This document shows, one piece after another, positions 6,611 through 28,861 of a stretch of 64,000 bases of DNA (its first letter is position 1; each line of letters begins with the position of its first letter). The stretch is from Streptomyces venezuelae (GTDB taxonomy: Bacteria; Actinomycetota; Actinomycetes; Streptomycetales; Streptomycetaceae). The stretch lies in NCBI RefSeq assembly GCF_008642315.1, contig NZ_CP029192.1, positions 1,364,001 through 1,428,000 of the forward strand. The letters are read 5' to 3'. A model generated the notes under the pieces. The model worked only from the letters and a program-made list of their open reading frames with translations, did no database searches and was not told where the DNA came from. The position numbers were made by a program, and so were the translations under genes.

Positions 6611-6684
6611 CAATCTACCGCGAGGGCGCCCCCGAGAGTGTGCGAGCGCACTCCAACTCCCCTACGAAGGGACAGGACTTCGCC

Positions 6685-8370: not shown

Positions 8371-8385
8371 GGAGCCCTGACAACC

Positions 8386-9615: not shown

Positions 9616-9618
9616 GTG

Positions 9619-11772: not shown

Positions 11773-11784
11773 GGTGAACGGTTC

Positions 11785-11817
11785 GGGGCCGGCCGACGGT
11801 GCGCGCCGGCCGGCCCC
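11785..11817. terminator. GC-rich hairpin between the CoA-ligase and transporter genes
   Basis: A perfect 10-bp inverted repeat (GGGGCCGGCC at 11785-11794 and its complement at 11808-11817) lies in the 123-base gap before the transporter. With no T-run it may be a partial terminator or an mRNA stabiliser that lets transporter expression differ from the enzymes. Confidence 0.45.
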
Positions 11818-11895
11818 GGGACCCGTGCGCACACGGAAGGGATGGGACAGGGGGCGCTGGCCAGGATCTTTCCGACGCAAGGGGTGCTGAGCGAG

Positions 11896-13284: not shown

Positions 13285-13285
13285 C

Positions 13286-14680: not shown

Positions 14681-14692
14681 CTGTCCCGGCAC

Positions 14693-14739
14693 CCATGGAT
14701 GGGGCCCTCCCGCCTGTGGCGGGAGGGCCCCATCCATGG
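14693..14739. terminator. Bidirectional terminator hairpin
   Basis: A perfect 22-bp inverted repeat (14693-14714 and 14718-14739, starting CCATGGATGGGG) has a 3-base loop between two convergent genes, the transporter on plus and the Tat isomerase on minus. No other feature fits the gap. Confidence 0.9.
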
Positions 14740-14747
14740 GCATGCGG

Positions 14748-15806
14748 TCAGTCGCCGCAGCGGCCGCGCAGGGAATGCAGGTGCTCGCTGGACTTGCGGG
14801 CGAAGGCGTAGGACTCGACCGGGTTGTCGTGCTCGGTCTGCCAGTGGTGGTAGCGCTTGCCCTGGTGGGTGCGGGACGTCACCTTCGACAGGAACTTCTT
14901 GTAGTCGATGTCGCCGTCTCCGACATCCGTCATGCGGTAGCCGTCACGCGTGGTCTCGTCACGGATGCCGTCCTTGACGTGGAACAGCGGATAACGATGG
15001 GGCTGCTTCAGCACGTAGTCGAGCGGGTGGAAGGGGGCCGGGGTGCCGTCGACGCGCTCCCCGAAGCGGAACTGGGCGCTGAACGCCCAGTAGATGTCCA
15101 TCTCCAGATACACGAAGTCGGGGTCGGTCTCCGCGAGGAGCACGTCGTAGAGCCGGACCTTCGGCTTGTCGGTGGCGAAGGAGAACTCCTCGGCGTGGTT
15201 GTGCTGGTAGAACTTCATGCCGCGCTTGCGGGCCGCTTCGCCGTACGTGTTGAAGTCCTCCGCCGCACGCTTCCAGGCGTCGACGGTGGTGCCGTAGCGG
15301 AAGGGGCCCGAGGCGGTGCCGATGTGCTTGAGGCCGAGGGCCTCGGCGTCGTCGAGGACCTTGGTGAGGTTCTGCGCGAACGTGTACGCGTTGGGGTTGT
15401 TGTCGTCGTAGTAGCCGACGTGGGACCCGATGGGGTTCAGGCCGTGATCGCGGGCCAACCTCTTGAGCTGGGCCAGGGTGATGGCGCCCGCGGCGCCCTG
15501 GGTGTATCCGGCGAATTCGATCTCGTCGTATCCGTACTTCTCCAACTCCGCGAAGACGGGCGCGAATCCGACAGAGGAAACCTTGTCACGCAGGCTGTAG
15601 AGCTGGATGCCGAGCCGGCCGGGCGGCAGGACGGGACGCCCGCGGCCCTTGCCCGCGGCCGCGGAGTCGGCGGGGGCCGCCGCGGCGGTGGGGGCGGCCG
15701 CCCCGACGAGCGCCGCGGCGGTGGCTCCCGCGGCCACACCGAGCATGCCGCGTCGGCTGAGTCTCTGCGCGAGTTCGGGGTCGGTGGTGGTCGGCTTGCG
15801 GCTCAT
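14748..15806 (-). CDS. Tat-exported sugar phosphate isomerase/epimerase-like protein
   Basis: A 352-residue secreted protein. The N-terminus has a twin-arginine signal (LSRRGMLGVAAGATAAALVG) ending in an alanine-rich cleavage region near residue 45. The mature part is an AP-endonuclease-2/xylose-isomerase TIM barrel starting LGIQLYSLRDKV. Likely metal-site elements are HNHAEEFSF, YLEMDIYWAF and LFHVKDG. The homologous fold is used by 3-keto-sugar enzymes and epimerases; the substrate is unknown. Export suggests an extracytoplasmic metabolite, which suits the trafficking-type ebo-like cluster directly upstream, 148 bases away on the same strand. ATG 15806 has a GAGGAGAA site. It may have its own promoter. 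Confidence 0.85.
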   Translation of the reverse strand: MSRKPTTTDPELAQRLSRRGMLGVAAGATAAALVGAAAPTAAAAPADSAAAGKGRGRPVLPPGRLGIQLYSLRDKVSSVGFAPVFAELEKYGYDEIEFAGYTQGAAGAITLAQLKRLARDHGLNPIGSHVGYYDDNNPNAYTFAQNLTKVLDDAEALGLKHIGTASGPFRYGTTVDAWKRAAEDFNTYGEAARKRGMKFYQHNHAEEFSFATDKPKVRLYDVLLAETDPDFVYLEMDIYWAFSAQFRFGERVDGTPAPFHPLDYVLKQPHRYPLFHVKDGIRDETTRDGYRMTDVGDGDIDYKKFLSKVTSRTHQGKRYHHWQTEHDNPVESYAFARKSSEHLHSLRGRCGD

Positions 15807-15954
15807 GCGGTTCTCCTCGGTGGCCTCAGGGGCGTGTCAGGGATGGGTTCGAAGAACGGATCAGGGATCGCTGAGGGTCGGGCCCTGATGGCAGGGTCCG
15901 AGCTGTCTGGTTCAGTGGAGATCAAGCAGATTCAGCGACGCGGGCCGGTGGACA

Positions 15955-17331
15955 TCACCGCAGACCCGCGAGGTCGAGCAGGAGCGATTTCACATCGGTG
16001 GCCGCGACGCGGCCGCTGACGGCGCGGGGGGTGGAGCACAGAATGAGCGGACTTTCGTCCTCGCTCGTGGGGAGGCGGCCATGGCTGCCGCGAATAGGTG
16101 ACGGGTCCAGGGGCACGACCGCCATGCGGTAGCGCATGCCGAGCTTCTTGCGGGCCACCGCGCCCGCGGCCTTGAGGCGGACGTACGGGTCCTTGGGGTC
16201 CATGAAGAGCTCGACGGGGTCGTAGCCGGGTTTGCGGTGGATCTCGACGAGCTGCGCGAAGTCGGGCGCGCGGGCGTCGTCGAGCCAGTAGTAGTACGTG
16301 AACCAGGCGTCCGGCTCCGCGACGGCGACGAGTTCACCGGAGCGCGGATGATCCAGGTGGTGGTCCTTCTTGCCCTCGTCGTCGAGGAGTTGCTCGATGC
16401 CGGGGACGCCTTCCAGGGCCGCCCGGGTGGCGTCGAGGTCTTCCGGACGGCGGACGTAGACGTGGGCGATCTGGTGGTCGGCGACGGCGAAGGCCCGGGA
16501 GGCCATCGGGTCGAGGTACTCCATGCCGTCCTGGGTGTGCACTTCGAGCAGACCCGCGCGGCGCAGCACCCGGTTGATGTCGACGGGGCGGTTCACCCGG
16601 GTGATGCCGTACTCGGACAGCGCGACGACGGTCCTGCCCTCCGCCTTCGCGTCGTCCAGGAGTGGCGCCATGGTCGCATCGAGCTCGGCTGCGGCGCGGA
16701 AGGAACGTGGATCGTCGGGGCCGAAGCGCTGCAGGTCGTAGTCGAGGTGAGGGAGGTAGCACAGGGCGAGGTCGGGGTGACGGGTGTCGATGATGTGCCG
16801 GGTGGCGTCCACGATCCAGTGGCTGGACACGATGTCGGCGCCGGGCCCCCAGAAGTGGAAGAGGGGGAACGTGCCGAGTTTGTCGGTGAGTTCGTCGTGG
16901 AGGGCCGGGGGCCGGGTGTAGCAGTCGGGTTCTTTGCGGCCGTCGGCGTAGTAGACGGGGCGGGGGGTGATGGTGAATTCGGTGTCGGCGCCCATGGCGT
17001 ACCACCAGCAGATGTTGGCGACGGTGTAGCCGGGGTGCGCGCGGCGGGCGGCGTCCCACAGTTTGTCGCCGGCCACGAGGCCGTTGTGCTGACGCCACAG
17101 GAGTACGTCGCCGAGCTCGCGGAAGTACCAGCCGTTCCCGACGATGCCGTGCTCGGCCGGGGTGGTGCCGGTGAGGAAGGTCGACTGGGCGGCGCAGGTG
17201 ACGGCGGGCAGCACGGTGCCGAGCGGTGCTCTGGACCCGGACTGGCCGAGCGCTTTGAGGCGCGGCATGTGGTCGAGGAGGCGCGGGGTGAGGCCGACGA
17301 CGTCAAGAACCAGCAAGGGGGTCGGGGTCAT
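15955..17331 (-). CDS. Type I phosphodiesterase / nucleotide pyrophosphatase family protein (EboF-like)
   Basis: A 458-residue alkaline phosphatase-superfamily protein. Visible are the N-terminal metal Asp in LLVLDVVGLTP, the probable nucleophile Thr in VLPAVTCAAQSTFLTG, AEHGIVGNGWYF, and LPHLDYDLQRFGPDD. The position that normally carries the Asp-His metal ligands of the phosphodiesterase (SDHG) reads SEYGI, so the second metal site differs. A later VADHQIAHVYV could provide ligands. Such proteins are the phosphodiesterase member of ebo clusters. The ATG at 17331 overlaps the TGA of the upstream eboE-like gene by 4 bases, so the two are co-translated. Activity is uncertain because of the altered motif. 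Confidence 0.82.
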   Translation of the reverse strand: MTPTPLLVLDVVGLTPRLLDHMPRLKALGQSGSRAPLGTVLPAVTCAAQSTFLTGTTPAEHGIVGNGWYFRELGDVLLWRQHNGLVAGDKLWDAARRAHPGYTVANICWWYAMGADTEFTITPRPVYYADGRKEPDCYTRPPALHDELTDKLGTFPLFHFWGPGADIVSSHWIVDATRHIIDTRHPDLALCYLPHLDYDLQRFGPDDPRSFRAAAELDATMAPLLDDAKAEGRTVVALSEYGITRVNRPVDINRVLRRAGLLEVHTQDGMEYLDPMASRAFAVADHQIAHVYVRRPEDLDATRAALEGVPGIEQLLDDEGKKDHHLDHPRSGELVAVAEPDAWFTYYYWLDDARAPDFAQLVEIHRKPGYDPVELFMDPKDPYVRLKAAGAVARKKLGMRYRMAVVPLDPSPIRGSHGRLPTSEDESPLILCSTPRAVSGRVAATDVKSLLLDLAGLR

Positions 17332-18497
17332 GGGAGTTCCTTGAGGCCGAGGTCGGTCAGGAGGTCGCGGGCGAGGGAGAGCTCTGCGGCGATGCCTTCG
17401 GCGAGCTGGGGGCGGCCGCGGGGGCGCAGTGCGGACGGGAGGGCCTGCCAGGTGTAGGTCTCGACCTCCAGATGGCGGGTGAGGGGGACGGGCCCGCCGA
17501 CGAGTCGGGTCAGGACGTCCTGAAGGACGGGGAGCGTGGAGGTGAGGGGCGCGGCGGGGGCCGCGTGGAGGGGGACGTGGAAGTGGGCGCGCCAGGGTGC
17601 TGTGTCGGGCAGCACGTCGGTGGCGAGGGCTTCGCCCAGGTCGTCGGTGCCGCGCAGGCCGGCGCCGGTCAGGGTCCGGGTCTGGTGGAGGAAGCGGGGT
17701 TCGTCGAAGGCGGCGAGGGCTTCGCGTACGGCGGGGAGGTGAGGGTGTTCGGCGTGCAGTGCGGCGGACAGCTGCGATTTGACGACAGGGACGCCTGCGG
17801 CGGTGAGGGCGTCGAGGGCGGTCCGGGGATCTTCGAAGGAGGTGGCGAGGTGACAGGTGTCGACACAGACGCCGATGCGGTCGTGGCCGACCGCGGTGAG
17901 CGGGGCGATGGCGTCGGCGGTCGTCTCGACGGTGCAGCCGGGCTCTGGTTCGAGGCCGATGCGGATGGAGCGGCCGGTCAGCTCGGTGAGGGCGTCGAGG
18001 CGCTGGGCGAGCACGGTGAGGGCCGTGCGGGCGGCCTCGGCGTGCTGGGGGTCGAAGGGGGTGCGCCAAGCGAGCGGAAGGGTGGAGATGGTGCCTTCGG
18101 TGACGTCGTCGGGCAGGAGGGCGGCGAGCAGCCTGGCCAGTTCGGTGGTGTGGCTGAGGCGTTCCGGGTCGGTCCAGTCCGGCTTGTACACACGGTATTT
18201 GACCTGCTCCGCGCCGAACCCCTCATAGGGGAAGCCGTTAAGGGTGACGACTTCGAGTCCGCGCCGGTCGAGTTCGGTGCGCAGGCCGCGCAGGGCCGCG
18301 GGGTCGGTGACGAGGGCGCGGGCGGCGTCCTTGGCGAGCCACAGGCCGATGCCGATGCGATCCCTGCCGAGCTTCTTGCGCACGGGCTCGCAGTGGTCGC
18401 GGAGCTGGGCGAGCACACCGTCGAGGGTTTCGGCCGGATGGACGTTGGTGCAGTAGGCGAGGTGGACGGTGGAGCCGTCGGGGTGCCGGAAGCGCAT
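17328..18497 (-). CDS. eboE: EboE-type metabolite traffic protein (xylose isomerase-like TIM barrel)
   Basis: A 389-residue TIM-barrel protein starting MRFRHPDGSTVHLAYCTNVHPAE, a typical EboE opening. Candidate metal ligands occur in order: GLEPEPGC, GVCVDTCHLA, AHFHVPLH and HLEVETYTW. EboE is required in ebo clusters for export or processing of precursors; no reaction has been proven. It lies 3 bases after the TatD-like gene and overlaps the phosphodiesterase gene by 4 bases, in the middle of an eight-gene minus-strand series. Cytoplasmic, as no signal peptide is seen. Confidence 0.85.
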   Translation of the reverse strand: MRFRHPDGSTVHLAYCTNVHPAETLDGVLAQLRDHCEPVRKKLGRDRIGIGLWLAKDAARALVTDPAALRGLRTELDRRGLEVVTLNGFPYEGFGAEQVKYRVYKPDWTDPERLSHTTELARLLAALLPDDVTEGTISTLPLAWRTPFDPQHAEAARTALTVLAQRLDALTELTGRSIRIGLEPEPGCTVETTADAIAPLTAVGHDRIGVCVDTCHLATSFEDPRTALDALTAAGVPVVKSQLSAALHAEHPHLPAVREALAAFDEPRFLHQTRTLTGAGLRGTDDLGEALATDVLPDTAPWRAHFHVPLHAAPAAPLTSTLPVLQDVLTRLVGGPVPLTRHLEVETYTWQALPSALRPRGRPQLAEGIAAELSLARDLLTDLGLKELP

Positions 18498-18500
18498 GGG

Positions 18501-19352
18501 TCACGCCCCGCCGCGCAGGATGGAGTTGCCTTCGTGGGTGGCGGTGTCCGGTTCGCGCACGTCGAGCTGGAGCCGGCCGCTGAGTCCGTAGAACTCCACG
18601 GGGTTGCGCCACAGCACGAGGTCGACGTCGTCCTCGTCGTACCCGGTGGCCAGCATGGCGTCGGCGACCTTGCGGGTCTTGAGGGGGTCGCTCTTTCCCC
18701 AGTCGGCGGCGGAGTTGACGAGCACCCGGTCGGGGCCGAAGTCGCGCAGGATCGCGACCATCCGCTGCTCGTCCATCTTGGTGTCGGGATAGACGGAGAA
18801 GCCCAGCCAGCAGCCGCTGTCCTTGGCTTCCTTGACGGTGGTCTCGTTGAGGTGGTCGATCAGGACGCGGTCGAGGGGCAGGGCGGACTCGCTGATCACG
18901 TCGATGGTGCGGCGCAGACCCGCGAGCTTGTCGCGGTGCGGGGTGTGCACGAGAGCGGGCAGCTCGTGGTCGGCGGCGAGCTGCAGCTGGGCGGCGAGCG
19001 CGGTGTCCTCGGCCGGCGTCATGGAGTCGTAGCCGATCTCTCCGACGGCGACGACGTTGTCCTTGACGAGATAGCGGGGCAGTTCGTCGAGGACGGGCGT
19101 GCAGCGGGGGTCGTTCGCCTCCTTCGGGTTAAGGGCGATCGTGCAGTGGTGGGCGATGCCGTATTGGGCCGCGCGGAAGGGTTCCCACCCGAGAAGGGAG
19201 TCGAAGTAGTCGAAGAAGGAGGCGGGCGACGTGCGTGGCTGGCCGAGCCAGAACGCGGGTTCCACGACGGCGCGGACGCCGGCGGCATACATCGCCTGGT
19301 AGTCGTCGGTGGTGCGGGACGTCATGTGGATGTGGGGGTCGAAGATGCGCAT
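18501..19352 (-). CDS. eboB: TatD-family metal-dependent hydrolase (EboB-like)
   Basis: A 283-residue amidohydrolase-fold protein beginning MRIFDPHIHMTSRTTDDY. The His7-X-His9 pair is the first metal motif. The further elements VAVGEIGYD, ALVHTPH, DHLNE and LVNSAADWGKSDP complete the TatD-type binuclear site. Unlike TatD DNases, this subgroup is found in ebo clusters next to EboA. Start 19352 shares one base with the TGA of eboA (TGATG arrangement), implying translational coupling. It probably acts in the cytoplasm on the cluster metabolite. Confidence 0.87.
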   Translation of the reverse strand: MRIFDPHIHMTSRTTDDYQAMYAAGVRAVVEPAFWLGQPRTSPASFFDYFDSLLGWEPFRAAQYGIAHHCTIALNPKEANDPRCTPVLDELPRYLVKDNVVAVGEIGYDSMTPAEDTALAAQLQLAADHELPALVHTPHRDKLAGLRRTIDVISESALPLDRVLIDHLNETTVKEAKDSGCWLGFSVYPDTKMDEQRMVAILRDFGPDRVLVNSAADWGKSDPLKTRKVADAMLATGYDEDDVDLVLWRNPVEFYGLSGRLQLDVREPDTATHEGNSILRGGA

Positions 19353-20026
19353 CAGGACTCCTGCTCCTCGCCGGTGAGGGGGCCCGTGGGGGCCGAGGGG
19401 GACTCGAGGACGGTCAGCTCCATGGCTCGGTGCAGGTCGCCGGGGACAGGGCGGCCGGCCGCGGACCGCTCCGTGGCGTAGTCGCCGAGCATCCGGGCGA
19501 GTTCCGCGTCTGAGTGGGCACGCCTCGGCAGGTCGGCGACGGCGTCCAGCGGGACACCGGTGAACAGGCACTTGAGGACGGCGTGCCGCCAGTCGTGCGG
19601 AGGCAGGTGTGCGGCGGCGTAGGGGCCGACGGCCGCGGCGACGAGGCTCGTGTCGTTGGTGCGCAGGGCGTCCTCGACCAGGGGCAGCGCGTCGGGGCCC
19701 GGCACCAGGTGGGGCAGTGACCGCAGGACGGCCCGGCGTTCGGCTGCGGTGCCCTGGGCGTAGAGGCGGGCGAGGGTGACCGGGGTGGCGTTCGCGGCTT
19801 GCAGGAGCAGGATGCGGGCGGCGTCGGCGTGGTCGGGACCGCAGCGGCGTCCGGCCTCGGCGAACCGAAGCTCCCACATGGGGGTGGGTCCCGGCCCCTC
19901 CCGTTCGGGTCGCTCTCCGTGGGCGGCGGCTTCGGCGGTGGCCTGGTCGAGCCAGGCGCGGGCGGCTCCGCCGAGGTCGTTCTCGAGGTGGGCGCGGAGG
20001 GCGGTGATCTCGGAGGCGTCGGTCAT
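19352..20026 (-). CDS. eboA: EboA domain-containing protein
   Basis: A 224-residue helical protein with the features of the EboA family. These are a WELRFAEAGRRCG region, repeated short helices (ARILLLQAANATP, LPHLVPGPDALPLVEDALRTND) and the signature YAAAHLPPHDWRHAVLKCLFTGVPLDAV near residues 136-163. No enzymatic motif or membrane segment is evident, so it may be a scaffold. ATG 20026 overlaps the previous TGA by 4 bases. Its presence with EboB, EboC-like and EboE-like genes is what identifies the cluster. Confidence 0.85.
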   Translation of the reverse strand: MTDASEITALRAHLENDLGGAARAWLDQATAEAAAHGERPEREGPGPTPMWELRFAEAGRRCGPDHADAARILLLQAANATPVTLARLYAQGTAAERRAVLRSLPHLVPGPDALPLVEDALRTNDTSLVAAAVGPYAAAHLPPHDWRHAVLKCLFTGVPLDAVADLPRRAHSDAELARMLGDYATERSAAGRPVPGDLHRAMELTVLESPSAPTGPLTGEEQES

Positions 20027-21015
20027 GGGGTACCTCCTTCGGCGGGGGTGGCGGCGAGGACGGGGGCCGGAACGGCGGCTTCCGCGCGGCGCAGGAAGTC
20101 GATGGAGCGGGCGGCGAGGTCGGGGCCCGCGTGGGAGTGGCGGGGTAGTTCGACGACGGTCAGCCCTCGGTATCCGACGCTGGCCAGCGCTTCGAGGACG
20201 GGCGGGAAGTCGATCTCTCCGTCGCCGAAGGGCAGGTGCTCGTGGACTCCGCGGCGCATGTCCTCGATCTGGACGTGCCGCAAATAGGGGGCGGCGGCAC
20301 GCACGCAGTCCGCGGGAGGGAGGGGTTCGAGGCACTGGCAGTGGCCGATGTCGAGGGTGAGGCCGAGGAGTTCGGGGTCGGGGTCCCCTAGATGCCGGCG
20401 CAGGTGATGGAAGTCAGCGAGGGACGAAAGGAGGTGGCCGGGTTCGGGCTCGATCGCGAGCGGGACACCGGCGCCCGAGGCGGCGTCGAGTACGGGTTCG
20501 AGCGCGTCGGTGAGGCGCCGCCAGGCGATGTCGGCCGGGGTGTCTGCCGGGGTGATGCCGCTGAAACAGTGCACGGCGTGGGCGCCCAGGTCGACGGCGA
20601 CCTGAACGGCGCGGATCAGCAGACGGCCGCGTTCGGCGCGCCGTTCCGGGTCGGGATCGAGGAGGGAGGGACCGTGCTTTTGGCGCGGGTCGAGGACGTA
20701 GCGGGCGCCGGTCTCGATGGCGACGCCCAGGCCGAGGCGGTCGAGACGGCGGGCCACATGGCGGGTGCGGGCGGCGAGATCGGGGGCGAGGGGGTCGAGG
20801 TGCATGTGATCGAGCGTCAGGCCGACACCGGCATAGCCGAGGTCGGCGAGGAGACCGAGGGCGTCGTCGAGACGCAGGTCGGTCAGCCCGTTGGTCCCAT
20901 AGCCGAAGCGGAGCCCGGTGCCGTGGCTGTCTTGGCTGTCATGGCTGTCGTGGCCATCGTGACCACTCTGGCTCGCGTCGTGCGGGTGGCGCTTCCGTGG
21001 GACTGGTCCGCTCAT
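20023..21015 (-). CDS. Sugar phosphate isomerase/epimerase-like protein with His/Asp-rich N-terminal repeat
   Basis: A 330-residue protein. The TIM-barrel domain (from about residue 34, LRFGYGTNGL) has probable metal ligands in LAIEPEPGHL, LTLDIGHCQC, RHVQIEDM and LTVVELPRHSH. The first 33 residues are low complexity, with repeats of Gly-His-Asp-Ser-His-Asp-Ser-Gln-Asp encoded by a 9-bp tandem repeat. This tract could bind metal ions or merely reflect repeat expansion. It overlaps the genes on both sides by 4 bases (ATGA arrangements) and is thus tightly coupled to the UbiA-like and EboA genes. A second TIM-barrel protein beside EboE suggests consecutive steps on a cyclitol or sugar. Substrate unknown. 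Confidence 0.83.
   Translation of the reverse strand: MSGPVPRKRHPHDASQSGHDGHDSHDSQDSHGTGLRFGYGTNGLTDLRLDDALGLLADLGYAGVGLTLDHMHLDPLAPDLAARTRHVARRLDRLGLGVAIETGARYVLDPRQKHGPSLLDPDPERRAERGRLLIRAVQVAVDLGAHAVHCFSGITPADTPADIAWRRLTDALEPVLDAASGAGVPLAIEPEPGHLLSSLADFHHLRRHLGDPDPELLGLTLDIGHCQCLEPLPPADCVRAAAPYLRHVQIEDMRRGVHEHLPFGDGEIDFPPVLEALASVGYRGLTVVELPRHSHAGPDLAARSIDFLRRAEAAVPAPVLAATPAEGGTP
20924..20965. repeat. 9-bp coding repeat in the isomerase-like gene
   Basis: Four 9-bp units like TGGCTGTCA run from 20924 to 20959, with a partial fifth. They encode the His/Asp/Ser-rich N-terminal tract of the minus-strand isomerase-like protein in frame. Confidence 0.75.
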
Positions 21016-22157
21016 GTGACGCTCACCTTTCGTGCGAACCGTCGGGCCGCGGGGGCGAGCGCTGCGGTCAGGAGGGCTGTGACGGGGGCGCCGGTACGGG
21101 CGGCCAGGGCGGCCTGGAGCGGGATCATGGCGCGGATGCCGCCGCCGACGGCGCGCTGGGTGAGGGGAGGCGACGGGTTGAGGGCGGCGTGGAAGAGGGG
21201 TCTGGCGGCGGTTCCGGCGTAGGCGAGGGCGAGGGCGCCACGTAGGGCCCGGTGGGCGGTGTCGGGAGTCGCGGTCCGGGGGGCCGGGCCTCTCTCGGGA
21301 GTCGCGGTCCGGAGGGCGGGGCCGCTCTCGGGAGCGAGTCCACTGGCACTCCCCCTTGAGGCGCTCCCCGTCGAGGCGCTTCCCCTTGAGGCGCTTCCCC
21401 TTGAGGCACTTCCCCTTGAGGCGCTTTCCCCCGGGGCGCTCCGGCCTCGTCGCCGCCATCCGAACCCGCCGTCGTCCACGTCTCCGTCCCCGCCCACCGA
21501 GGGGCGGCGTGTGGTGCCGGCGCCGACCAGGCGGGTCAGGGCGGCCGTCGTCGCCAGTGCGGCCAAGGGCGCGGTCGAGGAGCCGCCCTGCGCTTCGCGG
21601 CGGGAGACGACGGTGACGGCCAGGGTGTGGGCGGCGAGGGCCGCCGCCGAGGGGGCGGCCGCGGTGGCCCGGGACCGCGGATCGTGATCGTGGTCGGGGC
21701 CTGCCGTGGCGGTCGCGCCGAGGAGCAGGTCGAGGCCGCGTGCGGTGGCCATGGCTGCCGGACCGGCGGGGGTGTGCTTCAGGGCGAGGTCGTACGCCCA
21801 CACCGTCCCGGCCAGCGCGCCCGCGACGGCGAGGGACGGGCGGCCCGCGCGGGAGGCGAGGGCGAGGCCCGCGGCGGTGAGGGCGGTGGCCGCGGTGAGG
21901 GCCGCGGGTGGGGCGATGCGGCCGGAGGGCAGGGGGCGCTCGGGGCGTTCGACGGCGTCTTCGGCGCGGTCGGCCCAGTCGTTGAGGGCCATGCCGGCCT
22001 CGTACAGGCAGAGGGAGGAACCGATGGCGAGGAGGGTGCGATGGTTGGGACGCAGGCCGGTCGCCGCCGCTCCGGCGAGGGCGTCGCCGGGGACGGTGAA
22101 CAGGGCGGGGAGGCGCAGGAGTTCGGCCCAGGCGCGTCGCGTGGCCACGGCGCTCAT
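21012..22157 (-). CDS. eboC: UbiA-like prenyltransferase (EboC-like) with repeat-expanded loop
   Basis: A 381-residue membrane protein of the UbiA superfamily. The first Asp motif NDWADRAEDAVERPERPLPSG (near residues 59-79) would bind the prenyl diphosphate via Mg, and the second conserved region is WAYDLALKHTP. Membrane helices surround residues 10-60, 85-125, 135-215 and 300-370. UbiA helices are interrupted around residues 240-300 by a hydrophilic insert made of GSASR-type five-residue units and three 11-residue units (PALRTATPERG-like). Both come from minisatellites, so a typical UbiA (about 290-300 residues) is enlarged by about 60. In ebo clusters EboC is thought to attach or carry a lipid anchor. 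It overlaps the gene before and the gene after by 4 bases. Confidence 0.85.
   Translation of the reverse strand: MSAVATRRAWAELLRLPALFTVPGDALAGAAATGLRPNHRTLLAIGSSLCLYEAGMALNDWADRAEDAVERPERPLPSGRIAPPAALTAATALTAAGLALASRAGRPSLAVAGALAGTVWAYDLALKHTPAGPAAMATARGLDLLLGATATAGPDHDHDPRSRATAAAPSAAALAAHTLAVTVVSRREAQGGSSTAPLAALATTAALTRLVGAGTTRRPSVGGDGDVDDGGFGWRRRGRSAPGESASRGSASRGSASRGSASTGSASRGSASGLAPESGPALRTATPERGPAPRTATPDTAHRALRGALALAYAGTAARPLFHAALNPSPPLTQRAVGGGIRAMIPLQAALAARTGAPVTALLTAALAPAARRFARKVSVT
21262..21440. repeat. Two adjoining coding minisatellites (33-bp and 15-bp) in the eboC-like gene
   Basis: Units of 33 bp start with TCGGGAG at 21262, 21295 and 21328 (third partial). They are followed from about 21351 by five to six 15-bp units like CTTGAGGCGCTTCCC up to about 21430. 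Both periods are multiples of three, so the UbiA reading frame is retained. Confidence 0.88.
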
Positions 22158-23479
22158 GAGGCCTCACCGGACGGCGATCCGTCGGCGGGACCGCGATCGG
22201 CCCGTCCGGAAACGCGACCAGTGGCTTCGACGAAAACCCCTCGGTCCCTTGGGACGCCTCGGTCCCTTGGGACGCCTCGGTCCCCCAGGTCCCCCGGGTC
22301 CCCCAGGGCCCCTCCGGTTTCTCCCAGCTGCGCCGCGAAGTCCATGAGTGCGGCGTACTGCTCGCCCAGGGCCGCCGGGGCGTCGGCGTCCGGATCCTTG
22401 AAGTAGAAGGCGAGGGCGGGCAGGGGGCCGGAGAGGCCGCGTTCGTGGGCGCGGGAGGTCAGGCGGGCGAGGTCCAGGATCAAGGGGGCCGCGAGTGCCG
22501 AGTCGCAGCCCTGCCAGGTGGTCTGGAGGACCATGCGTGTGCCGAGGAAGCCGTCGAAGGCGATGTGGTCCCAGGCCGTCTTCCAGTCACCGAGGGAGGG
22601 GACGTCGTCGATGTGGACCTCGCCCTCGGGGGCGGAGCCCAGCGTGTCGGCGAGGACGCGTTCCTTGCCCGCGTTCTTCGCCGCGGCGGCCGCGGGGTCG
22701 GCCAGGGCGGCGCCGTCACCGCCACCGAGGAGGTTCGTGCCGGACCAGGCGCGTACGGCGAGGGCGCGTTGCGCGAACATCGGGCCGAGTACGGAGCGGA
22801 GCAGGGTCTGGCCGGTCTTGCCGTCGCGGCCCGCGTAGGGGAGGCCGGAGGTGCGTGCCGCGTCGGCGAGACGCGGGTGGTGCAGGCCCGTGGAGGGGGT
22901 GAAGTTGACGTAGGGGCAGTCGGCGCGCAGGGCGGCGGCCGCGTAGAGGGAGCTGGCGGGGAGCCGTTCGGCGTCGTCGGCGGGGAGGGGTTCGGTCGAG
23001 GCGACGTTCACCACCACGGCACGGGCCAGGCCCCGGCGACGTACGAAGTCGCGGATGTCGGCGGCGAAGGCCTCGATCAGTTGCTCGTCGGTGCGGGTGT
23101 CGCCCGGTTGGGGGCCGCCGGGACGTATCTCGGCGTCTGCCGCCGCGAGTTCGGCGTGCACCGCGGAGGGGAGGCCGTGCGGCAGGACGCCGCCCGCGGC
23201 GAGTTCCTCGGCGCGTTTGGGCAGGGGGCAGCTGGTGGTGTCGTGGCCGCCGAAGACGAGTGACGACAACGTTGGCAGGCCGCGGTCCATGAAGGGCGCG
23301 GTTTCGGTCACCATGCCGGTGGGGGCGTGGAGGCCGGCGGTCATCGCCGCGCAGCCCGCGACGGCCGTGGTCGCGACCGAGCCGCGTGCCCCGATCAGCC
23401 ATACGCCGACGGGACCGAGGGGCGGCGTCCCGAGGGGAGGAGTGGAGGGCGTAGATGGTGAGGTCGCGGATGTGGACAC
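22154..23479 (-). CDS. myo-Inositol-1-phosphate synthase family protein
   Basis: A 441-residue NAD-dependent cyclase homologue. The Rossmann motif VGVWLIGARGSVATTAVAG is near residues 24-42, and there are YVNFTPSTGLHHP and GRDGKTGQTLLRSVLGPMF followed by WSGTNLLGGGDG, the catalytic-domain pattern of myo-inositol-phosphate synthase. The GTG at 23479 is preferred over an ATG at 23494 because GGAGG sits five bases upstream of the GTG. The C-terminal 60 residues contain low-complexity GDRGVPRDRG repeats. It opens an operon with the EboC-like gene. Known ebo clusters have a dehydroquinate-synthase-like EboD here. Both are NAD-dependent carbocycle-forming enzymes, so this could make the cyclitol scaffold of the product. 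Confidence 0.83.
   Translation of the reverse strand: MSTSATSPSTPSTPPLGTPPLGPVGVWLIGARGSVATTAVAGCAAMTAGLHAPTGMVTETAPFMDRGLPTLSSLVFGGHDTTSCPLPKRAEELAAGGVLPHGLPSAVHAELAAADAEIRPGGPQPGDTRTDEQLIEAFAADIRDFVRRRGLARAVVVNVASTEPLPADDAERLPASSLYAAAALRADCPYVNFTPSTGLHHPRLADAARTSGLPYAGRDGKTGQTLLRSVLGPMFAQRALAVRAWSGTNLLGGGDGAALADPAAAAAKNAGKERVLADTLGSAPEGEVHIDDVPSLGDWKTAWDHIAFDGFLGTRMVLQTTWQGCDSALAAPLILDLARLTSRAHERGLSGPLPALAFYFKDPDADAPAALGEQYAALMDFAAQLGETGGALGDPGDLGDRGVPRDRGVPRDRGVFVEATGRVSGRADRGPADGSPSGEAS
22239..22320. repeat. 18-bp coding repeat at the 3' end of the inositol-phosphate synthase gene
   Basis: Two exact 18-bp copies (22239-22256, 22257-22274; CCTCGGTCCCTTGGGACG) and degenerate 9-bp copies to about 22320 encode Pro/Arg/Gly/Asp-rich repeats in the C-terminal tail on the minus strand. 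Confidence 0.8.
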
Positions 23480-23552
23480 GGCTGCCTCCTGCATGACTCA
23501 AGAGCTCGGGACACGGTTCGGGAGCTCGCTGAACGTGAGTGCGGTGCAAGAC

Positions 23553-23589: not shown

Positions 23590-25113
23590 CTAGCGACCCG
23601 CGCCCGAACCGGTCGTCGGGGCGGGTGGGTCGGAGTGGTGTGCCGTCACATCACTCATCGGCACAGCCTTCCCCGGGCGGACCTTCCCCAGGCCGTCCAG
23701 GCCGTCCTGTCCTGAATGTGCTGTCCCCGCGTGGTCCTTGCCCGGTCGGCCCGGCCGAGTCGGCCGGCCCTTGGCGGGCAGGTCCTTCAGCCGGATGTTC
23801 CGGAAGGTGACCTCGTCGGCGTCGCCGTGGTTCTGGATGCCGATGTGGCCTTGGCGCAGGCTGCGCGCCGGGTCCGTGTTGGTGAAGTCGTTGACCTTGA
23901 CTCCGTTGAGGTAGACGCGAAGGCGTTCGCCCTCGACGCGAATCTCGTACGTGTTCCACTGCCCCGGCGGGTTCAGCGCCTGGTCGCGCTTCTTCAGGTC
24001 GGCGGAGCGGAAGCCGTAGACGGAGCCCGTGGTCTTCTCGGGGACGTCCGTGGCGTCGATCTGGATCTCGTAACCGTTGTTCACGGCCGACCAGGGGTCG
24101 TCGGAGGGCGGGAAGCCCACGAAGATCCCCGAGTTGTCGTCGCCCCGCATCCGCCAGTCGAGCTTGAGGGAGTAGGAGCCGAGTTCGCGCCGGTCGTACC
24201 AGAGCATGCCCATGCCGCCGACGGTCTTGAGCGTTCCGTCGCCCTCGTTGAGCTGGAGCGAGCCGGGGCCCGCCTGTTTCCAGCCCTGCAGCGAGGAGGC
24301 GGTGCCGTCGAAGATCGGGGTGTAGCCCTTCTCCGGTCGGCAGTCGGCCTGGGCCGCGCCGACGGCCCAGCGGATGCCGCCGAGCAGGTGCTGCCGGAAG
24401 GCGGGTTCGGCGTAGGACTCCTTGGTGTGGCCGCCGCCGGTGTAGAAGGAGCGGCCGCCCTCGTAGTTCTGGCACCAGGCGATGGGGTGGTCGCCGGACA
24501 TCGTGCCGCCCGTGTACGACGACTCGTCGAGGGTGGCGAGTACGCGGGCCCGGTCGCGGGGGTTGACGCGGTAGTTGTACCACTCGTCGGTGCGGTCCCA
24601 GCTGCCTGTGCCGAGGTGGGCGGTGGCCGGGTGCGCGTGGTCCTCGACGTGCACCTTCGCGGGCTGAATCGCGGGGTGGGACTGGAAGTAGGCGCCCGCG
24701 AGCCCGCCGTAGAAGGGCCAGTCGTACTCGGTGTCGGCCGCGGCGTGCACGCCGACGTAGGCGCCGCCGCCGCGGATGTACTGCTCGAACGCCGTCTGCT
24801 GGGCGGCGTTCAGGACGTCACCGGTCGTCGAGAGCCAGACCACGGCGTCGTACTGGGCCAGGTTGGCGGCGGTGAAGGCCCCCGCGTCCTCGGTCGCGTC
24901 GACGGCGAAGCCGTTCGCGGCGCCGAGTTCCTTGACGGTGGCGACGCCGGTGGGGATCGAGTCGTGGCGGAAGCCGGCGGTCTTGGAGAAAACCAGGACC
25001 TTCTCCCCCGCCTTCTTCGACGGCTCGGGCTCGGAGGCCGCGGGACCCGACACACAGCCGATGAGCAGGGCGGCTGCGGCGGTCGCGGTGGCCAGCCGTA
25101 CGGATGAGCGCAT
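23590..25113 (-). CDS. ThuA domain / 3-keto-disaccharide hydrolase (DUF1080) lipoprotein
   Basis: A 507-residue exported lipoprotein with the lipobox LLIGC (Cys20). Domain 1 (about 40-250) is a ThuA/glutamine-amidotransferase-like fold with VLVFSKTAGFRHDSI, YDAVVWLSTTGDVL and the GDHPIAWCQNYEGGRSFYTGGGHT region. Domain 2 (about 275-450) is a beta-sandwich of the DUF1080/3-keto-disaccharide hydrolase family (IFDGTASSLQGW to HIGIQNHGDADEVTFRNIRL). The last 55 residues are low complexity. ThuA proteins are linked to trehalose-type glucosides oxidised at C3, and DUF1080 proteins cleave 3-keto glycosides. Together with the upstream GSDH protein this suggests extracellular handling of oxidised sugars. 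ATG 25113 lies 13 bases after the GSDH gene, so the two form an operon. Confidence 0.85.
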   Translation of the reverse strand: MRSSVRLATATAAAALLIGCVSGPAASEPEPSKKAGEKVLVFSKTAGFRHDSIPTGVATVKELGAANGFAVDATEDAGAFTAANLAQYDAVVWLSTTGDVLNAAQQTAFEQYIRGGGAYVGVHAAADTEYDWPFYGGLAGAYFQSHPAIQPAKVHVEDHAHPATAHLGTGSWDRTDEWYNYRVNPRDRARVLATLDESSYTGGTMSGDHPIAWCQNYEGGRSFYTGGGHTKESYAEPAFRQHLLGGIRWAVGAAQADCRPEKGYTPIFDGTASSLQGWKQAGPGSLQLNEGDGTLKTVGGMGMLWYDRRELGSYSLKLDWRMRGDDNSGIFVGFPPSDDPWSAVNNGYEIQIDATDVPEKTTGSVYGFRSADLKKRDQALNPPGQWNTYEIRVEGERLRVYLNGVKVNDFTNTDPARSLRQGHIGIQNHGDADEVTFRNIRLKDLPAKGRPTRPGRPGKDHAGTAHSGQDGLDGLGKVRPGKAVPMSDVTAHHSDPPAPTTGSGAGR

Positions 25114-25126: not shown

Positions 25127-27631
25127 TCAGCTCGTCGAGGAGCGCGTCGTGGAGCTCGTCGTGAACGTGAAGTCGTCCACGTCGTACAGCGCTCCCGAAC
25201 CCTTGCCCTTGAAGACCAGGTAGAGCGTCGTGGTCTTCGTGGGCGGCTTGCTGATGGCCGTGCTGACGTCGGCGTACGTCTCCCAGCCACCCGTCGGCGC
25301 CACCTTCACGGTGCCGAGGAGCCTGCCGCCGGCGGATCCGCTGCGCACCTCGAGCGTGCCCCCGGATCCGGCCGACGCGACGCGCGCGGTCAGCTTGGTG
25401 GCGTTGCCGAGGATGTACGGCTTGAAGGAGACCCAGTCGCCGTTGTGGATGTCGCCGACGGTCTTGCCGCCGTGCGCGGGGGTGTGGTTGACGACGGAGA
25501 CGCCCTTGGAGTCGTTGAAGTGCTCGCCCTGACGGTGCTTCGGCTGGACGACGTTCTGGTCGTGGGTGGTCAGCGCGGGCTGGCCGTTGGCGCCCTTGTC
25601 GGTGTACTCGGCGTCGAACACCCCGAAGATGTTGGCGTTCGGGTCGTGCTCACCGTCGGCGGAGGTCTGGATGGTTCCCTCGCAGCCGTTGGCCGAGGTG
25701 ACGGGATGGCCGTGGCTGTCGTGGCCGAGGATGTGCGTGACCTTGACCTTGGTGCAGTCGATCGGGCCGTCCTCCGGGTCGGTCACCTTCACCTTGAAGG
25801 GCACCTTGTCGCCGAAGGTGAACATCTGACCGTCGCCGGGGAGTTCCAGGGTCACCTTGGGCGCGGTGTTGCCGACGGTGATGTGCGCGCTGGCCGACCC
25901 GGTGCGTCCGGTGGAGTCCTTCACGGTCACGGTGGCCGTGTAGACGCCGTTCTTCTTGTACGTGTACGTGGGGTTCTGCTGCGTGGACTTGCCGCCGTCG
26001 CCGAAGTCCCAGGCGTAGGTGAGCGTCCCGCCGTCGGCGTCCGTGGCCTTGGCGGTGAACTTGGTGCGCAGGGGCGCCTGCCCGCTCGTCCTGGAGGCGG
26101 TGGCCTCGGCGACCGGGGAGTGTCCGTCGGTGGCGTTCTCGATGCGGTAGAGGCCCGAGTTCTCGTCGCCGCCGAACCAGGCGGTGCCGTAGTCGAGGAC
26201 GTAGAGGGCGCCGTCGGGGCCGAACTCCATGTCCATGACCTGGGTGCCGGTCCACGGGAACGGGTTGATCTTCGAGACCGTGCCGTCCGCACCCTGCTCG
26301 ATGCGCTTGATCCAGCGGCGGCCGAACTCGCCGGCGAAGAAGTCGCCGTCATACGCCTCGGGGAACTTCACCGGGGAGGTGTTCGCCGCGTCGTAGCGGT
26401 AGACGGGTCCGCCCATCGGGGACTCGGAGCCGCTGCCGAACTCGGGCACGGAGCCGCCGTCGTACGGAATCCAGGCTTCCTGCGCGGGCGGCAGGTCGGT
26501 CAGGCCGGTGTTGTGCGGCGAATCGTTCTTGGGTGCCTTGCAGTCGAAGGCGGAGCCGGAGGTGCCGGTCGCGAAGTCGTAGTCGACGTAGGCGTCGTTC
26601 TTGCCGGTGCAGAACGGCCAGCCGAAGTTGCCGGCCTCGGTGACCCTGGCGAACTCGACCTGTCCCGCGGGGCCGCGCTTGGGGTCGGCCGCGCCGGCGT
26701 CGGGCCCGTAGTCACCGACGTAGACGATGCCCGTCGGTTTGTCGACGCTCATGCGGAAGGGGTTGCGGAATCCCATCGCGTAGATCTCGGGGCGGGTCTT
26801 CTCGGTGCCCTTGGCGAAGAGGTTGCCGTCCGGGACGGTGTACGAGCCGTCGTCGGCGACCTTGACGCGCAGGATCTTGCCGCGCAGGTCGTTAGTGTTG
26901 CCCGCGCTGCGCCGCGCGTCGAAGGCGGGGTTGCGGTTCGCTCGCTCGTCGATGGGCGTGAAGCCGTCCGAGGCGAAGGGGTTCGAGTCGTCGCCGGTCG
27001 ACAGGTAGAGGTTGCCCTCCTTGTCGAAGTCGATGTCACCGCCGACGTGGCAGCAGGTGCCGCGGCTCGCGGGGACGTCGAGGACCTTCTTCTCGCTGGC
27101 GTTGTCGAGGGTGCCGTCCGCCTTCAGGACGAAGCGGGAGAGGCGGTTCACGCCGTCGAACTTCTTGAAGTCCTCGGCCGTGCCGTTCTCCGGGGCGTCA
27201 CCCGCGGGGGTGTCGAGCGGCGGCGCGTAGTAGAGGTAGATCGCCCGGTTGTCCTTGAACTTCGGGTCGATGCCGACGCCCTGGAGGCCCTCTTCGTCGT
27301 GCGTGTAGACCGGGATCTTCCCGGCGATCCTGGTGTTGCCCGCCGCGTCCGTGAGGCGGAGCGTGCCGTCGCGTGAGGTGTGCAGGACCGAGCGGTCGGG
27401 GAGCACGGCCAGCGTCATCGGCTCGCCCGTCTCCGGGGCGCCCTTGGCGAGGGTGACCTGCTGGAAGTCCTCGGCGACAGGAGCGGCGGGGGCTGCGGGG
27501 GCTGCCTTCGCGGGCGGGTCGGCGGGGACGGCACCGGCGTTCGGCACGGCGAGGGTCAGGGTGGCACCGGTGAGTACCGTGCCGGTGAGCAGGGCGAGGG
27601 TGCTGCGGAGTCTCGGGCGTTTCCTGTGCAC
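25127..27631 (-). CDS. Secreted PQQ-dependent sugar dehydrogenase-type protein with PKD and C-terminal CBM-like domain
   Basis: An 834-residue secreted multidomain protein. A Sec signal covers about 1-35 (LALLTGTVLTGATLTLA). A GSDH (glucose/sorbosone dehydrogenase) beta-propeller covers about 50-510, with EGLQGVGIDPKFKDN, the cysteine pair GTCCHVGGDIDFD, YAMGFRNPFRMS and VMDMEFGPDGALYVLDYG. A PKD domain follows (about 520-605, TYAWDFGDGGKST), then an Ig-like region. A C-terminal CBM6-like domain (about 700-825) contains GDWVSFKPYILGNAT. The GTG at 27631 has GGAGG seven bases upstream. PQQ use is inferred from the fold only. It may oxidise sugars for the downstream ThuA/DUF1080 protein. The upstream gap contains a putative operator. 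Confidence 0.85.
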   Translation of the reverse strand: MHRKRPRLRSTLALLTGTVLTGATLTLAVPNAGAVPADPPAKAAPAAPAAPVAEDFQQVTLAKGAPETGEPMTLAVLPDRSVLHTSRDGTLRLTDAAGNTRIAGKIPVYTHDEEGLQGVGIDPKFKDNRAIYLYYAPPLDTPAGDAPENGTAEDFKKFDGVNRLSRFVLKADGTLDNASEKKVLDVPASRGTCCHVGGDIDFDKEGNLYLSTGDDSNPFASDGFTPIDERANRNPAFDARRSAGNTNDLRGKILRVKVADDGSYTVPDGNLFAKGTEKTRPEIYAMGFRNPFRMSVDKPTGIVYVGDYGPDAGAADPKRGPAGQVEFARVTEAGNFGWPFCTGKNDAYVDYDFATGTSGSAFDCKAPKNDSPHNTGLTDLPPAQEAWIPYDGGSVPEFGSGSESPMGGPVYRYDAANTSPVKFPEAYDGDFFAGEFGRRWIKRIEQGADGTVSKINPFPWTGTQVMDMEFGPDGALYVLDYGTAWFGGDENSGLYRIENATDGHSPVAEATASRTSGQAPLRTKFTAKATDADGGTLTYAWDFGDGGKSTQQNPTYTYKKNGVYTATVTVKDSTGRTGSASAHITVGNTAPKVTLELPGDGQMFTFGDKVPFKVKVTDPEDGPIDCTKVKVTHILGHDSHGHPVTSANGCEGTIQTSADGEHDPNANIFGVFDAEYTDKGANGQPALTTHDQNVVQPKHRQGEHFNDSKGVSVVNHTPAHGGKTVGDIHNGDWVSFKPYILGNATKLTARVASAGSGGTLEVRSGSAGGRLLGTVKVAPTGGWETYADVSTAISKPPTKTTTLYLVFKGKGSGALYDVDDFTFTTSSTTRSSTS

Positions 27632-27737
27632 GGGGGTTCCTCCGGATGGGGGGACGGTCGTACGGGGTGTGTGCGCCGTGCGCCGGGGTGCGCCGTCACC
27701 CCGGACCATTCATGTCCTGAACACCTCAAGGACGGTA

Positions 27738-27847: not shown

Positions 27848-28861
27848 TCATTCGGCCCGGTCCGGGCCGCCGAACGCCGCGTCGAAGGACGCGCTCGGAG
27901 CCTCGAAATCGAACGCCTTCAGTCGCGTCAGCGCCTCCGGCGCGCCTTGCAGGCGGTCCATGCCCGCGTCCTCCCACTCGACGGAGATGGGTCCGTCGTA
28001 CGCGATGGAACGCAGCATCCGGAAGACGTCCTCCCAGGGGACTTCCCCATGGCCCGCCGACACGAAGTCCCAGCCGCGGCGCGGGTCGCCCCACGGGAGG
28101 TGCGAGCCGAGGCGGCCGTTGCGACCGTCCAGGCGGCGCCGGGCCTCCTTGCAGTCGACGTGGTAGATGCGGTCGCGGAAGTCGTAGAGGAAGCCGACCG
28201 GGTCGAGGTCCTGCCACACGAAGTGCGACGGGTCGAAGTTCAGCCCGAAGGCGGGGCGGTGGCCGACGGCGTCCAGGGCCTTGTGCGTGGTCCAGTAGTC
28301 GTACGCGATCTCCGAGGGGTGCACCTCGTGGGCGAACCGGACGCCCTCCGCGTCGAAGACGTCGAGGATCGGGTTCCAGCGCTCGGCGAAGTCCTCGTAC
28401 CCCCGCTCGATCATCGACTCGGGAGCCGGCGGGAACATCGCGACCAGATGCCAGATCGAGGACCCCGTGAAGCCGACGACCGTGTCGACCCCGAAGGCGG
28501 CGGCCGCCCGCGCGGTGTCCTTGATCTCGGCGGCGGCACGCTGCCGCACGCCCTCCCCCTCGCCGTCGCCCCAGATGCGGGCGGGCAGGATCGCCTGGTG
28601 CCGCTCGTCGATGATCGCGTCGCAGACGGCCTGGCCGACCAGGTGGTTGGAGATCGCCCAGCACTTGAGTCCGTACTTGTCGAGCAGCGCGTGCCGCCCG
28701 TCCAGGTACGTCGGGTCGGCGAGCGCCTTGTCGACCTCGAAGTGATCGCCCCAACAGGCGAGTTCGAGGCCGTCGTAACCGAAGTCGCGGGCGAGGGAGC
28801 AGACCTCTTCGAGCGGAAGGTCGGCCCACTGGCCGGTGAAGAGCGTGAACTGCCGTGGCAT
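27848..28861 (-). CDS. Sugar phosphate isomerase/epimerase family protein
   Basis: A 337-residue TIM-barrel protein (AP-endonuclease 2 fold). Metal-site candidates are [32 protein letters not shown] and SVEWEDAGM. The family includes epimerases and the lyases/hydratases used in 3-keto-sugar catabolism. Pairing with a Gfo/Idh/MocA oxidoreductase directly upstream on the same strand is the classic arrangement for such pathways. ATG 28861 has GAGGAGG upstream. It is the last gene of the ABC-transporter operon, since the next gene (GSDH) is 216 bases on with its own operator. Cytoplasmic. Confidence 0.87.

Follow-up and report, generated by a model that had tools for sequence, protein, structure and literature searches.

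Organization of the locus

Seven genes on the minus strand of Streptomyces venezuelae (genome of 8.94 Mb, single contig), at positions 15955 to 23479 of a 64,000-nucleotide window that was analysed as a whole, constitute an ebo cluster in which a homologue of myo-inositol-phosphate synthase (MIPS) takes the place of EboD (Table 1; all coordinates are positions in this window). The ebo operon, named in 2016, was described as six genes, eboABCDEF, of cyanobacteria, Bacteroidetes and eustigmatophyte plastids (PMC5133447, PMC6282210); the passages of PMC5133447 that deal with its function give the product as not known and the substrate of EboD as a guess. The S. venezuelae cluster shares with it EboA, EboB, an EboC-like prenyltransferase, EboE and EboF in one operon, but it has a MIPS-like cyclase and an additional TIM barrel with no EboD, its gene order is different, and its prenyltransferase belongs to a separate family, SCO3242.

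An earlier note on this DNA, made from its letters alone, had described eight minus-strand genes with overlaps or gaps of a few bases. Genes 1 to 7 fit this description, with overlaps of 4 bases at the MIPS/UbiA, UbiA/TIM barrel, TIM barrel/EboA and EboE/phosphodiesterase junctions, an overlap of 1 base between EboA and the TatD-like hydrolase, and a spacing of 3 bases between the latter and EboE. It fails for gene 8, which begins 148 bp after gene 7. The note's EboA and EboE matches proved genuine against profile models, scoring above the cut-offs of NF035938 and NF035939. In the NCBIfam search, the cluster proteins matched no model bearing the name EboB or EboF; genes 5 and 7 were assigned because of their identity to proteins of an EboD-type cluster of Azospirillum. 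The Pfam scores of genes 1 to 3 and 5 to 8 all exceed the respective cut-offs, and gene 3, EboE and gene 8 all match the same TIM-barrel family.

Table 1. Genes of the ebo locus and of the co-directional block upstream. The last column gives, for the flanking genes, the number of loci with near-complete flanks and of control windows that contain a match.
Feature	Position	Strand	Evidence	Loci vs controls
Gene 1, MIPS-like (myo-inositol-phosphate synthase homologue), in place of EboD	22154..23479	-	PF07994 120 bits, PF01658 102 bits; 1u1i E 3.4e-55	
Gene 2, UbiA-family prenyltransferase, EboC-like, SCO3242 family	21012..22157	-	NF045897 386 bits (cut-off 260); PF01040 69 bits	
Gene 3, xylose-isomerase-like TIM barrel, partner of MIPS, not of EboD	20023..21015	-	PF01261 144 bits	
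Gene 4, EboA	19352..20026	-	NF035938 163 bits (cut-off 50)	
Gene 5, EboB (TatD-like hydrolase)	18501..19352	-	PF01026 50 bits; 57% identity to Azospirillum EboB	
Gene 6, EboE	17328..18497	-	NF035939 426 bits (cut-off 250); PF01261 47 bits	
Gene 7, EboF (type I phosphodiesterase/nucleotide pyrophosphatase family)	15955..17331	-	PF01663 237 bits; 55% identity to Azospirillum EboF	
Gene 8, TIM barrel with twin-arginine signal SRRGMLGV (by eye); companion, not core	14748..15806	-	PF01261 65 bits	
ThuA and 3-keto-disaccharide hydrolase domains, probably exported (lipobox-like LIGC by eye)	23590..25113	-	PF06283 279 bits, PF06439 150 bits	43/61 vs 0/20
Glucose/sorbosone-dehydrogenase-like, PKD and CBM6	25127..27709	-	PF07995 123 bits, PF03422 113 bits	41/61 vs 0/20
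TIM barrel related to 2-hydroxy-3-keto-glucal hydratase	27848..28861	-	2zds 738 bits, 8ro4 134 bits	28/61 vs 0/20
Gfo/Idh/MocA oxidoreductase, levoglucosan-dehydrogenase-like	28940..30175	-	NF052479 368 bits (below cut-off 650), 6a3f 326 bits	30/61 vs 0/20
Sugar ABC importer, substrate-binding lipoprotein	30224..31264	-	PF13407 164 bits	29/61 vs 0/20
Sugar ABC importer, permease	31281..32300	-	PF02653 129 bits	29/61 vs 1/20
Sugar ABC importer, ATPase	32297..33814	-	PF00005 178 bits	32/61 vs 1/20
Open frame with ROK-family regulator in its last ~380 residues	34028..35746	-	PF00480 200 bits, NF047937 residues 190-563	23/61 vs 0/20

The start of gene 1 is either GTG at 23479, preceded by the Shine-Dalgarno-like sequence AGGAGG, or ATG at 23494. 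Its named best matches are Streptomyces proteins, and it ends in a low-complexity tail. The UbiA gene (21012-22157) carries a low-complexity insert of GSASR repeats that is absent or different in 12 aligned relatives. A promoter scan of the locus, of a kind that covers streptomycete promoters poorly, found nothing.

Conservation of the MIPS-first order in Actinomycetota

The earlier note had proposed that an inositol-phosphate synthase homologue is the first gene instead of EboD, and had suggested a search of gene neighbourhoods for ebo genes with MIPS and without EboD. A scan of named genomes by MIPS alignment confirmed at least 567 relatives, of which the best 80 were used (79 from Actinomycetota and one from an unclassified bacterium, with Streptomyces, 17 loci, and Amycolatopsis, 14, over-represented). 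The seven-gene set is complete in 59 of these 80 loci, from 26 named genera. Nine of the 80 had less than 6.2 kb of downstream sequence, and in 58 of the other 71 all seven genes occur in order on one strand with MIPS first. The conservation of this order across a phylum excludes a chance arrangement and bears out the proposal.

Approached from EboE, the same association was found. EboE is present in 11 of 246 sampled Actinomycetota genomes, at 12 places, and in ten of the eleven neighbourhoods fetched besides the window a MIPS-like gene leads the same series. The 11 strongest MIPS matches in the 246 genomes at E 1e-40 (49-100% identity, at least 322 bits) belong to exactly the 11 genomes with EboE and lie inside their ebo loci; the next match has 44% identity and 226 bits, and the 49% line was placed at this gap afterwards. 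The individual genes of the cluster are already named in public annotation. Literature searches of titles and abstracts, which left subscription papers mostly uncovered, found no paper on a MIPS-type ebo cluster, and the word 'inositol' is absent from the main text of PMC5133447, PMC6282210 and PMC9235831. The cluster thus represents a second form of an operon that is known but not explained, and this form, found throughout a phylum, is broader than first described.

Absence of EboD and distribution of the two cyclases

No EboD was found in the cluster or elsewhere in the S. venezuelae genome, either with PF01761 or with a true EboD as query. The genome contains two genes of the dehydroquinate (DHQ) synthase family, with 34% and 33% identity to true EboD. 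The first is AroB (TIGR01357, 351 bits, cut-off 305), and the second, L004, falls below every NCBIfam cut-off; both were rejected as a hidden EboD on account of their identity of only about one third. The earlier note had named an EboD linked to this pathway elsewhere in the genome as the finding that would overturn it; no such EboD was found, and its proposal survives this test. In the other ten EboE-bearing sample genomes, the EboD query gave only matches of 32-40%, compared with 44-60% for 15 other EboD-clade genes of plasmids, taken from a listing of 60 of 115 records. AroB and the second DHQ-synthase-like protein, used as queries, recovered EboD in 7/7 EboD-type loci at 107-130 bits; together with six EboDs they gave one match in 91 actinobacterial loci, of 36 bits (L064; E 0.003, 27% over 108 aa), which was judged to be due to chance. 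The second DHQ-synthase-like gene is followed by a cupin-like gene (L004:1147-3259; by eye, as only models far below cut-off matched).

The two cyclases do not occur together at the EboE loci of plasmids. Among 48 EboE-bearing plasmid records, MIPS lies within 10 kb in 29 and an EboD-clade gene is present in 15; no record combines the two, and four lack either cyclase. Because many of these records are near copies, the counts represent fewer independent events. The MIPS-type plasmids are those of Streptomyces, Embleya, Nonomuraea and Gemmatirosa (Gemmatimonadota), and the EboD-type plasmids those of Azospirillum, Ketogulonicigenium, Roseivivax, Salipiger, Mycetohabitans, Deinococcus and Aureibacter. 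A tblastn match to gene 3 is present in 4/4 fetched MIPS-type plasmid loci versus 0/7 fetched EboD-type loci, and the TIM barrel downstream in the Ketogulonicigenium EboD-type locus is of another subfamily. Since gene 3 accompanies MIPS and not EboD, MIPS and this TIM barrel together stand where EboD stood. There are thus two forms of ebo, whose sugar-phosphate cyclases are unrelated, and the MIPS form brings its own TIM barrel. Fusions of actinobacterial EboA to a xylose-isomerase-like domain are mentioned in PMC5133447, which fits the neighbourhood of genes 3 and 4.

The MIPS form extends beyond Actinomycetota. Gemmatirosa possesses MIPS, UbiA, gene 3, EboB, EboE and EboF in a different order, with no match to EboA. 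Three of five haloarchaeal MIPS records were fetched, and two of them, plasmids of Halocatena and Natronococcus, contain EboB, UbiA, two TIM barrels, MIPS and EboF, with no annotated EboA or EboD among the neighbours; the third, of Halomarina, has no ebo genes near MIPS. Both haloarchaeal TIM barrels are closer to gene 3 than to EboE, and the haloarchaeal ebo MIPS proteins are 41-42% identical to that of the window. In a MIPS tree of 36 rows, rooted at its midpoint, the actinobacterial ebo proteins form one clade (98/98) and the haloarchaeal proteins another, and the INO1-type MIPS encoded elsewhere in the S. venezuelae genome sits on a very long branch.

The Ketogulonicigenium EboD-type cluster (L133:4753-14116) begins with a pair of Gfo/Idh/MocA genes that lead straight into eboD, and a sugar isomerase gene lies downstream, a layout that resembles the sugar genes around MIPS-type ebo. 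Plasmids of Hymenobacter and Roseomonas (L147:5863-12489 and L148:5962-13137) encode another MIPS homologue together with Gfo/Idh/MocA, YcaO-like and sugar isomerase proteins, in what is a MIPS cluster of a different kind.

The cyclase and the prenyltransferase

Gene 1 encodes both the NAD-binding and the catalytic domain of MIPS (PF07994 and PF01658). The closest solved proteins to it, aligned over its full length, are the MIPS 1u1i and its alanine variants (1u1i and 3qvs are the Archaeoglobus fulgidus protein). Residues N255, K274, K278, K306 and K367 (1u1i numbering) are kept in the window protein, in all 80 of its relatives (the best of at least 567), and in the Gemmatirosa and haloarchaeal proteins; N255, K278 and K367 are positions at which solved 1u1i variants carry alanine. 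Gene 1 differs from 1u1i/3qvs in its location in an ebo operon and possibly in its substrate. The same five residues are also kept in a second MIPS homologue of the genome, a mycothiol-type INO1 that is 22% identical to gene 1 (738 bits on the mycothiol INO1 equivalog TIGR03450, cut-off 638, compared with 39 bits for gene 1), so they mark a MIPS-type active site and not a particular substrate. The five-membered-cyclitol-phosphate synthase 6k96 is among the solved relatives of gene 1, and the ring made by gene 1 could therefore differ from inositol.

With its active site intact, gene 1 might be a spare MIPS for the synthesis of phosphatidylinositol or mycothiol, its placement among ebo genes being meaningless. 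This explanation is very improbable and already disfavoured: ordinary inositol phosphate has another source in INO1, which differs from gene 1 at 78% of positions. Moreover, the ebo MIPS proteins of Actinobacteria make up a single clade that tracks EboE exactly in the 246 genomes.

The UbiA protein has 36% identity to an EboC over 154 aa, and its Asp-rich motif NDxxDxxxD is invariant in 13/13 aligned sequences. Among solved structures, its profile is closest to digeranylgeranylglyceryl phosphate (DGGGP) synthase, 6m31, whose prenyl acceptor is a hydroxyl group on a phosphorylated polyol. The gene matches the NCBI prenyltransferase family named SCO3242, and the rest of the set presumably lies at the SCO3242-SCO3243 locus of S. 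coelicolor, in the calcium-dependent antibiotic (CDA) region. SCO3243 is listed as a myo-inositol phosphate synthase among the CDA-cluster genes in PMC3610822.

Proposed function of the MIPS-type cluster

The earlier note had suggested a cyclitol-derived, possibly prenylated product that is trafficked across the membrane. Because the solved enzyme nearest to the UbiA profile has a phosphorylated polyol as its prenyl acceptor, a prenylated cyclitol is the most economical product to propose. With a probability of about one half, the MIPS-type ebo cluster makes a prenylated cyclitol, or cyclitol phosphate, that acts as a membrane factor when metabolites are transported or processed at the cell surface. 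This reading draws on gene content and order, the lack of co-occurrence of MIPS and EboD at plasmid EboE loci, the lack of EboD in the genome, the active-site residues and the association with sugar genes. From these we infer the product and each step towards it, as well as a function of EboA as adaptor and of the product in traffic. The MIPS-type enzyme, an NAD-dependent intramolecular aldol cyclase, would act on an aldose 6-phosphate to yield a cyclitol head, which the gene 3 isomerase or epimerase may help to form and adjust; in other ebo clusters, the same head would come from EboD, which is a sugar-phosphate cyclase too but has an unrelated fold. In the membrane, the EboC-like UbiA would attach a prenyl chain to the head, EboB, EboE and EboF would trim, rearrange or finish the product, and EboA may be an adaptor. 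In contrast to EboD-type cyclases, MIPS releases a product that retains its phosphate, and for this reason the head may still be phosphorylated when it is prenylated, and possibly in the final product; alternatively, EboF may remove the phosphate. Here the prenylated cyclitol would be tied to sugar uptake and 3-keto-type oxidation; at least one other strain would connect it with an aromatic polyketide cluster.

An isoprenoid-cyclitol has been proposed as the product of ebo (PMC5133447), and in Nostoc the ebo genes are reportedly required for delivery of the scytonemin monomer to the periplasm (PMC6282210); a role of the MIPS form in metabolite traffic is inferred by analogy with the latter. 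More doubtful is an extension of the proposal, in which a second class of ebo, in Actinomycetota, Gemmatimonadota and haloarchaea, would make a prenyl inositol phosphate, joined by an ether linkage, that carries sugars and secondary metabolites in the membrane, with EboD and MIPS as interchangeable, unrelated cyclases for the head group. Such a prenyl inositol phosphate would be a bacterial counterpart of the archaeal ether lipids. An ebo form with an intact MIPS-type cyclase points to an inositol-like cyclitol head group, and the kinship of its UbiA with DGGGP synthase suggests the chemistry by which head and chain are joined. Exchange of the cyclase is frequent in Streptomyces, a genus amenable to genetic work, which opens the question of the ebo product to experiment.

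Several observations weigh against a prenylated cyclitol product made by a fixed set of genes. The prenyltransferase scores 128 bits against the EboC model NF035940 (cut-off 250), and gene 4 scores 60 bits against the narrower EboA family NF035937 (cut-off 320). Pfam family tests found no prenyl-diphosphate synthase among the genes of the 16-gene block to which the cluster belongs. EboC homologues of Flavobacteria farnesylate quinolines in vitro, with no cyclitol reported in the relevant sections of PMC9235831. Among the 71 loci, 13 are incomplete or interrupted: in L067, L069, L096 and L106 EboE lies about 6 kb further on, a displacement that places EboF beyond the fetched stretch; L087, L088 and L104 lack UbiA alone; and L060, L066, L077, L090, L091 and L093 lack two or more of the seven genes. 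The one EboE neighbourhood of the 246-genome sample that MIPS does not lead, L017, has the six other genes of the set; it belongs to a genome with two ebo copies, the first of which does include MIPS. The four plasmid records with neither cyclase comprise two copies that match only EboB, EboE and EboF, a lone EboE in a type II polyketide cluster, and a match at the end of a record. Judging from L017, the two three-gene copies and the lone EboE, the seven-gene set is not obligatory in each locus.

UbiA is truly missing between MIPS and gene 3 in six of the 71 loci (L060, L066, L087, L088, L091 and L104), where the spacing between these genes is only 85-336 bp and contains no N. Five of the six genomes have a UbiA of the SCO3242 family elsewhere: those of L066, L087, L091 and L104 have a second UbiA above the family cut-off beside another EboE, and in that of L088 UbiA is split over contig ends, one of which carries EboE. 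The exception is L060, of Thermomonospora catenispora, whose genome contains no UbiA above the family cut-off. As most of these genomes carry UbiA elsewhere, the weight given to a prenylated cyclitol was left unchanged. Where MIPS stands alone, in L077 and L093, EboE is found above cut-off elsewhere in both genomes, and the pairing of MIPS and EboE at the level of the genome holds in 8/8 genomes with odd loci (L090 not among them).

Some of these loci have features of their own. Three Streptomyces genomes (G246-G248, with L087, L088 and L104) each contain a pair of ebo loci. The first of the pair has MIPS and no UbiA; the second has another EboE, which in two of the genomes lies beside a SCO3242-family UbiA above cut-off, and the two loci may share functions. 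In L067, a single open frame of 1994 residues (14644-20628), parts of which resemble ThuA, a sugar dehydrogenase and PKD by eye, separates eboB from eboE, and the displacement of EboE in L069, L096 and L106 is over a similar distance. Upstream of the ebo genes of L017 (7661-16808, genome G128), on the same strand, are genes for a CrtI-like FAD oxidoreductase and a protein of the inositol-monophosphatase family (PF00459, 194 bits). The lone eboE in a type II polyketide cluster belongs to Streptomyces sp. NBC_01244 (L142:8995-10173), and no other ebo gene is annotated in the fetched 19 kb.

Sugar genes flanking the cluster

Genes 1 to 8 and eight upstream genes form a co-directional block of 16 genes in the window, a large part of which is seen again in other genera. 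The borders drawn by the earlier note, around genes 1 to 8, have to be revised: the eight upstream genes, of sugar-uptake and 3-keto-sugar type (including an ATP-binding cassette (ABC) importer), recur with the cluster, and gene 8 is a companion. At least four of the eight are present in 33 of the 61 loci with near-complete flanks versus none of 20 control windows, which come from three genomes of genera not matched to the loci; the score thresholds for these counts and those in Table 1 were set after the scores had been seen, and counts by plain E-value agree, except that the ABC ATPase then matches in 5/20 controls. The note had also counted two added isomerase-like TIM barrels. Gene 3 belongs to the core as stated, but gene 8 was rejected as a core gene; it directly follows gene 7 in 4/4 MIPS loci of the same genus (L018-L021) and in 2/61 wider loci, and its family is present in 22/91 loci, so that it stands next to the core mainly in Streptomyces.

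The flanking Gfo/Idh/MocA oxidoreductase and TIM barrel resemble enzymes of the levoglucosan and 3-keto-glycoside pathways described in PMC7676230; the oxidoreductase differs from levoglucosan dehydrogenase in scoring below the curated cut-off and in being coupled to ebo genes. The MIPS form connects ebo to sugar-uptake and 3-keto-sugar-type genes. The main text of PMC5133447 contains none of the words 'ThuA', 'sugar transport' and 'keto', and that of PMC6282210 none of 'ThuA', 'sugar transport' and '3-keto'.

These flanks permit a catabolic explanation, in which the whole 16-gene block is one sugar-utilization locus, the substrate of the MIPS-like protein and the TIM barrel is a sugar that the ABC system brings in and the 3-keto-type enzymes oxidize, and UbiA is incidental or makes a minor lipid. 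It is unlikely, though it accounts for the frequency of the flanking genes and for the UbiA-less loci, for a ThuA gene or a sugar dehydrogenase gene (one in each plasmid) near the ebo sets of Halocatena and Natronococcus, and for Nocardioides pinisoli (L093), where MIPS is accompanied by sugar genes with no ebo genes nearby and EboE is elsewhere in the genome. None of the eight sugar genes is present in 9/61 loci, however, one plasmid copy is located inside an aromatic polyketide-type cluster, and we know of no sugar catabolism that needs a prenyltransferase.

A second use of the same neighbours would be to turn the cyclitol into an enol or aromatic ring by means of the TIM barrels and the Gfo/Idh/MocA protein, with UbiA C-prenylating this ring to give a quinone-like redox carrier for exported sugar dehydrogenases. 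The Gfo/Idh/MocA protein matches scyllo-inositol dehydrogenase 5ya8 (228 bits) and the inositol 2-dehydrogenase model (110 bits, cut-off 355), the TIM barrels show weak similarity to IolE, prenylation of aromatic rings by EboC homologues has been observed in vitro (PMC9235831), and the Ketogulonicigenium plasmid has its two Gfo/Idh/MocA genes immediately ahead of eboD. Inside the seven-gene core, MIPS is the sole oxidoreductase, and all matches to inositol catabolism are far below cut-off, which makes a redox carrier improbable.

Returning to the core that would make a prenylated cyclitol, it is a module used in several settings, of which the sugar setting is the commonest seen. The polyketide setting is that of a Streptomyces sp. 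AMCC400023 plasmid (L139:1-19926), on which the seven-gene MIPS-type core lies within an aromatic polyketide-type cluster containing genes for an aromatase/cyclase, FAD oxygenases, a glutamine synthetase and an amidase. On another Streptomyces plasmid, a gene of the ScyD/ScyE family, named after genes of the scytonemin cluster, directly precedes MIPS (L138:3026-4225).

On the other side of the ebo block, the genes at 6640-14680 of the window are on the plus strand, convergent with it, and were rejected as part of the locus, since two major facilitator superfamily (MFS) genes among them recur in 1/61 loci. They include genes that by eye resemble those of a thiamine enzyme, a CoA-transferase and a ligase, together with two transporters whose nearest subfamily, at scores below cut-off, is oxalate/formate, and the region looks like one of oxalate-type metabolism.

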